The position numbers were made by a program, and so were the translations under genes. A DNA stretch of 64,000 nt. Source: Salisaeta longa DSM 21114. GTDB lineage: Bacteria; Bacteroidota; Rhodothermia; Rhodothermales; Salinibacteraceae. The stretch lies in assembly GCF_000419585.1 (NCBI RefSeq), contig NZ_ATTH01000001.1:208005-272004 (forward strand). The letters run 5' to 3'. This document shows positions 59,959 to 63,993 of the stretch, one piece after another. Every line of letters begins with the position of its first letter. Position 1 is the stretch's first letter. Under the pieces are notes generated by a model. That model worked only from the letters and a program-made list of their open reading frames with translations, was not told the DNA's origin and made no database searches.

Positions 59959-60501
59959 ATGATGTGCCCTTCATACATTTGGTGGTTTGGAGTGTGGCTG
60001 CTCGTCCTGCCCCTCGCGGCGCGCGCCCAAACCGGCGCTGTTGCCGTGTCGCCCGCCGCGAAGGTGGCTGTGCGCGTGCAAGTCGATCGTGCCAAGGATG
60101 CGGCGTCTGCGCCGGATGGCGCATTTTCGTATGTACCGCTCGCCCTCACGTTCGAGATGCAGCGGAAGCGCTTTTCTTCGCTGCGGCAGGTACCGAGCAC
60201 CGAAGGAATGCGCCTGCGCGGACTTGTCATCGACGCGACGCTCACCAAGCTGGGACGCGACTTCTACCTTCAGTTCTTTCAGTATTGGGAGCCGCCAGCG
60301 GTGCAAGGCTTCTACACCATCGAAATTACGGAGCGCCCCACCCCCGGGCGCGGAACGTTGGTGGAAGCGCGGGTGAACGACGACATTCTTTTTCGGTCGC
60401 GCCTGCAAACCGACAGTGATATTGATACCCTCGCTCTAACGGCCGCGCGCCGCGTGTATCAGTATGTGCGCAGCGGTCAGGGCCTCTTCCGTGTGTACTA
60501 A
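59959..60501 (+). CDS. csgE: Curli secretion specificity factor CsgE
   Basis: A 180-residue periplasmic protein with a signal peptide (about 1-25, ending AARAQ). Family blocks are LRGLVIDATLTKLGRDFYLQF, then ITERPTPGRGTLVEARVNDDILFRSRLQ and AARRVYQYV, matching CsgE. In curli biogenesis CsgE caps the CsgG pore and guides CsgA to it. The start at 59959 (or the adjacent ATG at 59962) gives the signal peptide; the frame is open 50 codons further upstream. It is the first gene of a csgEFG(AB) locus, 287 bp after ruvA. Confidence 0.88.
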   Translation: MMCPSYIWWFGVWLLVLPLAARAQTGAVAVSPAAKVAVRVQVDRAKDAASAPDGAFSYVPLALTFEMQRKRFSSLRQVPSTEGMRLRGLVIDATLTKLGRDFYLQFFQYWEPPAVQGFYTIEITERPTPGRGTLVEARVNDDILFRSRLQTDSDIDTLALTAARRVYQYVRSGQGLFRVY

Positions 60502-60522: not shown

Positions 60523-60942
60523 ATGCTTATCCGGACACTCGCCAGTCTCATCGTATTGCTGGGAATCGGTGCCACCAGCGTAGCAGCGCAAGAACTCGTC
60601 TACCGCCCCACAAATCCAGCGTTTGGCGGTTCGTACCTGAACTATCAATGGCTGCTGAGCTCTGCACAGGCGCAAAATGCGTTTGAGGCCGATGCGGGCT
60701 CCTCTTTTTTCGACCGCGATCCCCTTGCTGACTTCCAAAACTCGCTGCAGCGCCAAATCCTGGATCAGCTCTCGCGCGAATTGGTGACCGAGCGCTTCGG
60801 CAACATCGATCTCTCGCAGCCCGGCACCTTCGACCTCGGGGCATACACGGTGGAAGTGCTACCGGGCGTGAATGGCACAACGATCCGCGTCTTTAACCCC
60901 ATCACCGGGGCTACCACCAGCGTAACCATCCCTAACTTGTAA
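60523..60942 (+). CDS. csgF: Curli assembly protein CsgF
   Basis: A 139-residue secreted protein. After the signal peptide (about 1-22, ending SVAAQ) comes the CsgF hallmark ELVYRPTNPAFGGSYLNYQW, the segment that inserts into the CsgG pore. A helical middle and a C-terminal beta part with FNPITGATTSVTIP follow. CsgF works at the outer face and places the nucleator on the cell. It starts 21 bp after csgE and is followed 12 bp later by csgG. Confidence 0.93.
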   Translation: MLIRTLASLIVLLGIGATSVAAQELVYRPTNPAFGGSYLNYQWLLSSAQAQNAFEADAGSSFFDRDPLADFQNSLQRQILDQLSRELVTERFGNIDLSQPGTFDLGAYTVEVLPGVNGTTIRVFNPITGATTSVTIPNL

Positions 60943-60954
60943 AGCTCGTCTGCC

Positions 60955-62322
60955 ATGCCTGCTGTTCGTCTCTCGATCTTGTCGCTTGCTCTTCTTATTG
61001 CCGGATGTGCCAACTACGCCGCACCCATGCGTACCAAGAGTGCACACCCGGGCTTGCAGAGCGCTGCCGCGCCCGAACTGCGCGGCTTGCCGGCCCCTCA
61101 GGATAAAGTGATTGCGGCCGTCTACCAATTTCGCGATCAGACGGGCCAATACAAGGCGTCTGAGCAAGGGTCGAGTTTTTCAACTGCCGTTACGCAGGGG
61201 GCTACCTCCATCCTAATGCGCGCGCTTGACGTCTCGGGATGGTTTGTGCCCATCGAGCGCGAGGGCCTGTCGAACCTCCTCAACGAGCGACAGATCATCC
61301 AGCAGATCCGCCAGCAGCATCAGGGAGCAGATGGAAAGACGCTCGGGCCGCTTCCGCCGCTTTTGTATGCCGGGGTGCTGCTTGAAGGCGGCATCATTGG
61401 ATATGACACGAACGTCCTAACGGGCGGTGGCGGTGTGCGCTACTTCGGGATTGGCGGTTCGGGGCAGTACCGGCAAGACCAGGTAACGGTCTACCTGCGC
61501 GCCATCTCTACGCAGAGTGGCCGCGTGTTGGCTACCGTGCACACGACCAAAACCATCCTCTCGCAGAAAGTGGACGGCGGGGCGTTTCTGTATGTGGATC
61601 AAGATCGCCTGTTGGAGGCCGAAGCGGGGTACAGCTTTAACGAACCCCCGGTGTTGGCGGTTACGGAAGCCATTGATGCGGCGGTTTATCAGCTGGTGCT
61701 GGAGGGCCTGCGCAGTGACCTGTGGAGTGCGCAAGATAGCCTGGCCGCCGCCCGCGCGTTGCAGTCGTACGACGCCCAACTCATGGCCACCCGGTCCCGC
61801 GACTATTTCGACCGCGTCCTCAAGACCGAAAGCCGCCCGGGCGTAGGCATTGGAGCGAGCGTGCATGCCCAACGATATGCCGGCGATTACAAATATCCGC
61901 GCGTTCGTCCGGCGGCTGAGGTGGCATTCCATCGGCAGATATCTACCCACTGGGGGGCTGAGCTGCTATTTGATGGCGGGTACATCACGGCCAAGGAGTC
62001 GTTTGAGTATCTTTCACTTGGCTCCTCGCTCAACCTCTCCTATCGCTTCCTGCCGTACGCATCGGCAACGCCCTACATTACGCTCGGAGCGGGCCTGCGC
62101 ACGCAGGGCACCAATCGGTTTGTGCTCGGCGAAACCCTGCTGCCACAAGCCACCGTGCGGGTGGGCATGGAAGCCATGGTTTCATCACGCTTCAGCGTTC
62201 AGGTATCGGCCAATGGACAATATGTCTTTTATGATATGCTCGATGGCGTGAAGGTGGGTACCTACGACGATTCACTGTGGAGTGGGTCGATCGGATTTAT
62301 TTACTACACCAGCTTTTTTTGA
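60955..62322 (+). CDS. csgG: Curli secretion pore lipoprotein CsgG with C-terminal barrel-like extension
   Basis: A 455-residue lipoprotein, much longer than the 277 of E. coli CsgG. It has a signal peptide with lipobox IAGC (Cys18). Residues about 50-285 are the CsgG domain: VIAAVYQFRDQTGQYK, GWFVPIEREGLSNLLNERQI, ALLEGGIIGYDTN-type pore region and VTEAIDAAVYQLVLEGLR. Residues about 296-455 are extra. They alternate short amphipathic strands, GVGIGASVHAQRY, AEVAFHRQISTHWGAELLFDG, PYITLGAGLRTQG, and end YYTSFF with the terminal Phe usual for outer-membrane barrels. CsgG forms the nonameric outer-membrane curli pore; the extension could add small barrels beside it. Confidence 0.92.
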   Translation: MPAVRLSILSLALLIAGCANYAAPMRTKSAHPGLQSAAAPELRGLPAPQDKVIAAVYQFRDQTGQYKASEQGSSFSTAVTQGATSILMRALDVSGWFVPIEREGLSNLLNERQIIQQIRQQHQGADGKTLGPLPPLLYAGVLLEGGIIGYDTNVLTGGGGVRYFGIGGSGQYRQDQVTVYLRAISTQSGRVLATVHTTKTILSQKVDGGAFLYVDQDRLLEAEAGYSFNEPPVLAVTEAIDAAVYQLVLEGLRSDLWSAQDSLAAARALQSYDAQLMATRSRDYFDRVLKTESRPGVGIGASVHAQRYAGDYKYPRVRPAAEVAFHRQISTHWGAELLFDGGYITAKESFEYLSLGSSLNLSYRFLPYASATPYITLGAGLRTQGTNRFVLGETLLPQATVRVGMEAMVSSRFSVQVSANGQYVFYDMLDGVKVGTYDDSLWSGSIGFIYYTSFF

Positions 62323-62624: not shown

Positions 62625-63314
62625 ATGAAAAAAACACTCTCCTTAGTACTCACCCTGTTCCTGACGGTGGGATTGGCCTCGGCACAGAGCAGCGGCAGCG
62701 AAGCCAAAATTAAAGCAACAGGAAACAACAATGACGTAACGGTCGAGCAAGTCCGTGGTGCGGACAATAACGCGTCGATCTGGGTTTCTGGTAATCAAAA
62801 TGTGGTCTCCGAGTACCAGCGGGGCGATCGCAACCAGGTCCTGTTGGAAGTTGCCGGTGGCAGCAACGATGCCATACGGTCGAAGCAAATGGGCGACGAC
62901 AACGCGATCTACGTTAATTTCCGCGGCGCCCGCCCGGCCCCGGTCTTCCAAAGCAATGATGTCGATAAGAACGACTTCTTGTTCCTCCAGGTTGGCAAAG
63001 AAAACATCTTTGGGGGTGCTGTTGCGGGTGACGGCAACAGTGGACAGTTCAAGCAATACGGCACAGGAAACACGCTGCTAGGTGATACTGATCTCGATGG
63101 AGATGGTGTCGACCGGTATGATGCCCAAGGGCTGATGATTGAAGGTCACCGCAATACCTTGCGTGGTCTTCAGCAGGGCCGTTTGAACACGGGCAAGATC
63201 ATGGCCACCGGAAACGGGAACCATCTGCGTTTCCAGCAGAAGGGCCAGCAGAACTACGGCGAAATCCTTGTGACGGGCGATGGCAACACCGCCCGTGTGA
63301 CGCAAGGGCAGTAG
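62625..63314 (+). CDS. Curlin-repeat protein, probable major curli subunit (CsgA-like)
   Basis: A 229-residue secreted protein with a signal peptide (about 1-21). The mature part is built of imperfect curlin-type repeats of the form N-x-A/V-x-x-x-Q-x-G-x-x-N: for example GNNNDVTVEQVRGADNNA, GDRNQVLLEVAGGSNDA, GHRNTLRGLQQGRLNTG and GNGNHLRFQQKGQQN. Each repeat should form a strand-turn-strand of an amyloid beta-solenoid. An acidic, Asp-rich insertion (GDTDLDGDGVD) interrupts the series and could bind calcium. It is likely exported through CsgG. Major versus minor subunit is judged only from repeat count and length. Confidence 0.83.
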   Translation: MKKTLSLVLTLFLTVGLASAQSSGSEAKIKATGNNNDVTVEQVRGADNNASIWVSGNQNVVSEYQRGDRNQVLLEVAGGSNDAIRSKQMGDDNAIYVNFRGARPAPVFQSNDVDKNDFLFLQVGKENIFGGAVAGDGNSGQFKQYGTGNTLLGDTDLDGDGVDRYDAQGLMIEGHRNTLRGLQQGRLNTGKIMATGNGNHLRFQQKGQQNYGEILVTGDGNTARVTQGQ

Positions 63315-63453: not shown

Positions 63454-63993
63454 ATGAAAAACGTACGTACACCATTCGCCTATCTGCTGGGCTTTTTGCT
63501 AGGGATGGCCTGCCTAGCCCACTTGCCGCACACCATCCATGCGCAGCAAGCGCCCCAGGTGCCCGCAACAGAAGCGCCGACGGTGGTTCAGTCGTTGCAT
63601 CCATCGCTCGTGTTCACGACGCTCGATCGGTCCGAATTTCTGCTCACCGCGCCGTTCTTCACATCGGCCGCGGGCCGCGCGGGTAACAGCGCGCAGGTGC
63701 GAATTGACGGCAGGCAAAACGATCTGTCGCTCACGCAGGTGGGAAGGTTCAATGCCGCAACCATCCAACTGCTTCAGTCAGATGGCAACGTCGTGCGGGC
63801 CCGGCAGCAGGGGCGAGCCAACGAGCTCGGGCTGCTCATCCAAAACGGCGGCAGCAACCAACTGCACCTGTTGCAGCAGGGGCGGGGCCTGGAGCTCTCG
63901 CTCGAACTGCAGAACGTACGGGGGCTGAAGCCGCGGATTTCCCAAGTGGGCCCCCGGGCGTTGCCGCTCTACATAAAAGTCGAAGGCCCGTGA
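63454..63993 (+). CDS. Curlin-repeat protein, probable minor curli subunit/nucleator (CsgB-like)
   Basis: A 179-residue secreted protein with a long signal peptide (about 1-30, ending TIHAQ). After a Pro/Thr-rich stretch the C-terminal 90 residues hold four or so curlin-like repeats: GNSAQVRIDGRQNDLSLTQ, GRFNAATIQLLQSDGNVVRA, RQQGRANELGLLIQNGGSNQ and LHLLQQGRGLELSLELQN. Fewer repeats, a basic C-terminus and its place after a terminator suggest a nucleator such as CsgB. The ATG at 63454 is the only start that gives a signal peptide. The gene ends seven bases before the window edge. Confidence 0.75.
   Translation: MKNVRTPFAYLLGFLLGMACLAHLPHTIHAQQAPQVPATEAPTVVQSLHPSLVFTTLDRSEFLLTAPFFTSAAGRAGNSAQVRIDGRQNDLSLTQVGRFNAATIQLLQSDGNVVRARQQGRANELGLLIQNGGSNQLHLLQQGRGLELSLELQNVRGLKPRISQVGPRALPLYIKVEGP

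Follow-up and report, generated by a model that had tools for sequence, protein, structure and literature searches.

The curli locus

The window, a stretch of 64,000 nucleotides from the genome of Salisaeta longa DSM 21114, contains a set of curli genes on its forward strand, in the order csgE-csgF-csgG-curlins. csgE lies at positions 59962..60501 (Pfam CsgE, E = 1.2e-17) and csgF at 60523..60942 (Pfam CsgF, 1.3e-35). csgG follows directly 3' of both at 60955..62322, as a single uninterrupted open reading frame of 455 amino acids that ends in YTSFF. Downstream are a curlin (CsgA/B-like) subunit at 62625..63314, with five stretches of curlin repeat (Pfam, 2e-12), and a second curlin-like protein at 63454..63993, whose weak repeats fall below the Pfam cut-off (0.0012). 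The partners that mark a CsgG protein as part of a curli system, csgE, csgF and curlin genes, all adjoin this csgG, and the sequence of the encoded CsgF retains a TNPAFGG-type N-terminal pore peptide. CsgG is the standard curli channel and is also a nanopore used in sequencing.

Just beyond the window end, after the curlins, lies a gene for a csgH-type curli chaperone (L167:4052-4444; NCBIfam NF041112, 53.6 bits against a cut-off of 35). csgH was first described from Alphaproteobacteria. The Salinibacter ruber plasmids pSR66 and pSR84 (L168 and L169) carry csgE-csgF-csgG clusters with csgH downstream, and csgEFG also occurs on Hymenobacter and Spirosoma plasmids. The source genome holds three more CsgG-domain matches (G000:C1:2308447-2309031, 1827977-1828267 and 1826747-1827064).

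A CsgG protein that continues beyond its usual end

The N-terminal part of the protein resembles Escherichia coli CsgG (structures 4uv3, 4uv2 and 6si7), which works with the same partners, CsgE, CsgF and curlins. A predicted signal peptide with the lipobox LIAGC (60955..61008) leads to Cys18 (codon 61006-61008), the putative lipid-acceptor residue and the sole cysteine of the protein. This column is Cys in 70/70 aligned CsgG homologues. The core domain follows at residues 46-260 (61090..61734). It matches Pfam PF03783 with E = 6.4e-63 (212.3 bits for the protein, curated cut-off 20.8) and E. coli CsgG (3x2r, 4uv2, 4uv3) by sequence and fold. The whole core domain is shared with the E. coli protein (E = 5.5e-63), residues 5-262 aligning with E. 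coli residues 3-257. When the full-length AlphaFold2 monomer model is searched against known structures with Foldseek, CsgG comes first, with the pre-pore form 4uv2 as the best match (1.3e-20), and OmpA-type barrels come next. Parts of the CsgG core have low confidence in this model.

The two proteins part ways after the core. E. coli CsgG has 277 residues; it stops right after the post-core helix region, about 20 residues past the aligned core, with the tail KAERQNDILVKYRHMSVPPES, and carries no barrel. The window protein runs about 170 residues further. Where the E. coli protein ends, AlphaFold2 places a helix (residues 262-280), followed by a linker (281-296) that connects it to the C-terminal domain; together they span 61738..61842. 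The linker length is nearly constant, with 14-16 residues in all 70 homologues and 16 in the window protein. The sequence-only reading had let the CsgG part end near residue 285, in agreement with these boundaries.

A further difference lies in the pore constriction (61159-61185, residues 69-77). Ser takes the place of both E. coli Tyr66 and Asn70, whereas Phe71 is kept as Phe75. Hence the eyelet chemistry of the window CsgG should differ from that of E. coli.

The extension is predicted to be an eight-stranded barrel

When the extension is modelled alone with AlphaFold2 (68 sequences), the result is a helix and then eight strands, each 12-15 residues long (mean pLDDT 86.7, pTM 0.79; block pLDDT values of the strands mostly between 80 and 97). 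The strands cover residues 297-309, 315-328, 333-346, 350-364, 371-384, 395-408, 413-424 and 439-452, and the full-length model contains the identical eight strands. This region, residues 297-452 at 61843..62310, is thus predicted to be an outer-membrane-type beta-barrel. A soluble helical or disordered tail, which would have spoken against a barrel, is rejected for the barrel-bearing group by the domain model.

Fold comparison points the same way. A Foldseek search with the domain returns OmpA (1.3e-7) and NspA (2.8e-7, TM 0.79 normalised to the target), and also Ail, OprF, OmpW and OmpX. Nearly all of the 40 matches at E ≤ 0.001 are outer-membrane barrels or designed membrane barrels. The domain has the fold of the OmpA, NspA and OprF transmembrane domains (Pfam OMP_b-brl), but is only 12-15% identical to them; OmpA is a protein of its own that carries a peptidoglycan-binding domain.

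The strands also have the pattern of a membrane barrel. In the alignment, polar and hydrophobic residues alternate in all eight strands. The mean difference in hydrophobicity between even and odd positions is 0.74, compared to 0.29 ± 0.08 for residues permuted inside each strand, and none of 10,000 shuffles reaches 0.74. When the window sequence is taken by itself, 15 in 10,000 shuffles score as high. On the Fauchere-Pliska scale the outward face averages 0.94 and the inward face 0.21 across the alignment. The last strand ends, together with the terminal Phe, in YTSFF (62305..62319), a possible BAM beta-signal, and 65/70 homologues have an aromatic residue in the last four residues of this region. 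The domain therefore combines an eight-stranded fold with an alternating, hydrophobic exterior and an aromatic-ended last strand. The sequence-only reading had described an extension of about 160-170 residues with amphipathic strands and a terminal Phe, fused to CsgG and resembling an outer-membrane barrel; the alternation, the models and the fold matches bear this out. By sequence and model, the window protein consists of CsgG and, fused to it, a predicted C-terminal eight-stranded outer-membrane-type barrel.

Some homologues carry Lys/Arg-rich tails past the last strand, as expected for a C-terminus in the periplasm. The CsgG protein of Xanthovirga aplysinae (L062:3094-5028) has an extra Lys/Arg-rich tail of about 180 residues past the barrel, and those of Marinifilaceae have Lys-rich tails of about 29 residues.

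The fusion is conserved in relatives

A fused open reading frame could also arise if a frameshift or a misassembly merged csgG with an adjacent barrel gene. The window frame contains no internal stop, and the conservation of the fusion already refutes such an error, to which we give practically no chance. All 12 full-length relatives in a sample from the family and order carry the extension. Patterns inside the CsgG core locate 77 loci in relatives, 72 of them with complete open reading frames, and 69 of these 72 contain at least 190 residues after the core. The three exceptions are a protein of the short type on a MAG contig titled Thiotrichaceae (L092), which lacks the barrel, and two frames that are ended early by a stop (L051 and L082). 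The fusion is found in many assemblies, under titles that include Salinivenus, Rubrivirga, Fodinibius, Rhodohalobacter, Marivirga, Fulvivirga, Labilibaculum, Marinilabilia, Saprospiraceae, Ignavibacteriae and Calditrichaeota, and on finished plasmids of Salinibacter ruber, Hymenobacter and Spirosoma. Frameshift and misassembly are therefore rejected.

The barrel is related to PorG

Pfam OMP_b-brl matches 50 of the 68 homologous extensions, while the window sequence itself has no match. The NCBIfam PorG model matches 60 of the 68, with a best E-value of 5.3e-11. In a profile comparison with HHalign, the extension aligns to 13 PorG proteins with 98.6% probability (E = 1.3e-15), and the two share Y-x-GD, TPY and TD-x-LDG features. 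Single PorG sequences reach 94-96%, compared to 62% for OmpA, 51% for OmpW and 13% for OmpX. Similarly, hmmsearch gives 16-41 bits for PorG and 9-14 bits for the same three controls. Because PorG outscores these controls, the barrel has its closest relatives, at the level of sequence profiles, among PorG-like barrels and not in outer-membrane proteins at large.

The barrel is not a PorG of the type IX secretion system (T9SS) itself. The window protein or its domain scores 17.8-21.7 bits against NCBIfam NF052316, whose cut-off is 130. PorG is a predicted eight-stranded outer-membrane protein with a periplasmic tail that is disulfide-bonded to GldK/PorK, a lipoprotein of the T9SS ring or track (PMC12635249). 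The window domain has no cysteine and hence no C-tail Cys for such a bond; Cys occurs in 5/70 extensions and in none of the C-terminal tails shown. A profile search of the window genome returns no PorG match. The likeness to T9SS PorG consists of an eight-stranded barrel, profile homology and a covalent tie to a periplasmic lipoprotein ring (PMC12635249). The difference is that PorG is its own protein, linked through a disulfide, while the window protein is a gene fusion with a Cys-free domain. The phylum hence already has a known case of a barrel bound covalently to a lipoprotein ring in the periplasm.

Conservation within the barrel peaks in two loops, loop 4 (D-LDG-G-ND) and loop 1 (GDY). 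Loop 4, between strands 7 and 8 (62233..62271), is the most conserved part of the barrel and reads D427-x2-D430-G-x3-G435-x3-D439. D430, G435 and D439 are invariant in the 68 sequences and D427 is present in 96%. Both loops would face outward in the topology implied by the model. The barrels may then act at the surface and not as anchors: conserved extracellular loops would keep the curli attached to the cell by binding LPS, divalent ions, CsgF or the growing fibre. In E. coli, CsgF joins the pore and the fibre on the outside (PMC6957492). However, the window CsgF has kept its pore peptide, and motifs related to loop 4 (TDYLDD/TDxLDG) are found in PorG, which is unconnected with curli, so that the conservation of the loops may be structural. 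We consider a surface function unlikely, although the conserved acidic loop (D427, D430, G435, D439), judged from sequence, leaves room for it.

The barrel-bearing form is widespread

To describe the distribution, we take a CsgF match at E ≤ 2e-29 as clear, which holds for 40 of 394 genomes of the phylum. In 40/40 of these, the CsgG frame is 454-552 amino acids long and matches the extension profile at that place. Outside Chlorobi, every sampled CsgF-CsgG system of the phylum that counts as clear thus has the barrel. Together with the 69 of 72 complete relatives, this makes barrel-bearing CsgG the standard form for Bacteroidota, Rhodothermota, Balneolota, Ignavibacteriota and Calditrichota. 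The sequence-only reading had called the fusion an unusual design. Its spread among CsgG relatives and plasmid copies shows that it is not unusual, and this part of the reading falls away.

The same distribution bears on a barrel that is an independent small porin or sensor and merely hitch-hikes on CsgG. Such a passenger would suit a complete domain on a linker and the low conservation of the domain, since most homologous extensions are only 17-36% identical to that of the window protein. Against it stand the presence of the barrel in each of the 40 genomes outside Chlorobi whose CsgF match is clear, and the architecture of eight-stranded barrels, whose interior is filled as a rule (OmpA/OmpX). 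We regard a passenger barrel as very improbable.

One family (f27) has weak or absent CsgF matches and CsgG frames of about 300 amino acids. Nine genomes of this kind all carry the chlorosome protein family PF02043, which identifies them as Chlorobi. Their CsgG proteins have 290-327 residues and a charged tail, without a barrel. A split arrangement, with a short CsgG and a separate barrel gene, is not seen in two Chlorobi curli loci (L133 and L134). The curli-like loci of Chlorobi (L133-L141) have a very divergent CsgF and a short, barrel-less CsgG that groups with alphaproteobacterial CsgG in the core tree.

Proteobacteria were compared via plasmid copies, one MAG and E. coli K-12. The proteobacterial plasmid copies listed match to residue 293 at most, and nearly all to 257-279, and so lack the barrel. 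In some Alphaproteobacteria and Chlorobi, CsgG has a tail of 23-97 residues that is mostly charged or Pro-rich. It is to these proteins that a soluble or disordered tail seems to apply.

In a tree built from the cores alone, the barrel-bearing sequences form one side of a branch, which requires one change (74% of bootstrap trees; support 71/67). A single gain of the barrel is therefore favoured, with weak support.

A MAG contig titled Ectothiorhodospiraceae (L077) encodes a CsgG that is 65% identical to the window protein over residues 8-251 and is cut at the contig end. It looks mis-binned from a Rhodothermota genome. A search of BFVD with the full-length model contributes nothing further than a CsgG of viral origin and small barrels from viruses. 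The viral CsgG-like protein (A0A6J5RM04, from an uncultured Caudovirales phage) is 38% identical over the aligned part.

A proposed pore with satellite anchors

We propose that the Bacteroidota/Rhodothermota-type curli (type VIII) channel combines a CsgG pore subunit with a PorG-like, BAM-folded barrel, and that nine such satellites anchor the 36-stranded pore. We consider this model probable. The subunit would receive its lipid at Cys18 and reach the outer membrane in the same way as E. coli CsgG. The BAM complex would then fold the C-terminal barrel into the same membrane via the aromatic-ended last strand. Nine subunits would assemble into a 36-stranded pore ringed by nine satellite barrels, each held by a periplasmic linker of about 16 residues. 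The satellites would serve as a second, strong anchor that fixes the orientation of the subunits and aids ring assembly and stability under the load of attached fibres. Since the lipobox (70/70), the core, CsgE, CsgF and the curlins are conserved, secretion proper (CsgE cap, CsgF collar, unfolded curlin) would proceed as in E. coli.

Nine barrels around a nonameric channel are plausible, and simple geometry allows them. Ideal-barrel formulae give backbone radii of 31.6 Å for 36 strands and 7.9 Å for eight. With 5 Å allowed for side chains, nine satellites touching the pore would sit at a radius of 49 Å with a spacing of 34 Å, each 26 Å wide. Hence nine barrels fit without a clash, a check of feasibility and not evidence of assembly.

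A barrel at the C-terminus whose last strand ends in aromatic residues would be expected to need BAM. In E. coli, CsgG assembles and inserts independently of BAM (work by Dunstan et al., summarised in PMC4973683); the pore itself can therefore do without a BAM-dependent domain. Also against the model, Chlorobi and Proteobacteria do without a barrel. Even so, a BAM-inserted second membrane anchor is, judged by analogy, the most likely role of the barrel.

The FapF transporter of Pseudomonas likewise exports amyloid across the outer membrane, and the FapF barrel is a weak Foldseek match. FapF barrels are export pores, whereas in the window protein the CsgG ring is the pore and the barrels would be satellites.

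A wider generalisation is more doubtful, and we put it forward tentatively. In Bacteroidota, PorG-type barrels may serve generally to anchor periplasmic lipoprotein rings in the outer membrane, attached by disulfide in the T9SS and by gene fusion in curli. The curli pore would then be a composite of a BAM-independent 36-stranded pore and nine BAM-dependent satellites, and its assembly would thus depend on both routes.

Relation to published work

A whole bacterial branch carries CsgG with an extra, predicted membrane barrel. If the nine satellites are real, the picture of pore insertion changes, because E. coli CsgG is the textbook BAM-independent pore. They would also form a natural scaffold of large size and connect curli secretion with the type IX system through its PorG barrels.

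A full-text search of openly available literature found no published description of a CsgG-barrel fusion. The fusion architecture is already visible in databases, since Pfam models recognise both halves. The solved CsgG structures that we found come from enterobacteria only, and the searched parts of the structure papers and of the curli survey do not mention an extra barrel. That survey covers Bacteroidetes and reports that CsgG size is unaffected by CsgA size; the passages found do not mention an extension (PMC3521004). A 2026 nanopore catalogue contains models of thousands of pores; CsgG-like nonamers are among them, some modelled from trimmed sequences. It may contain barrel-bearing CsgG proteins (PMC13397529).
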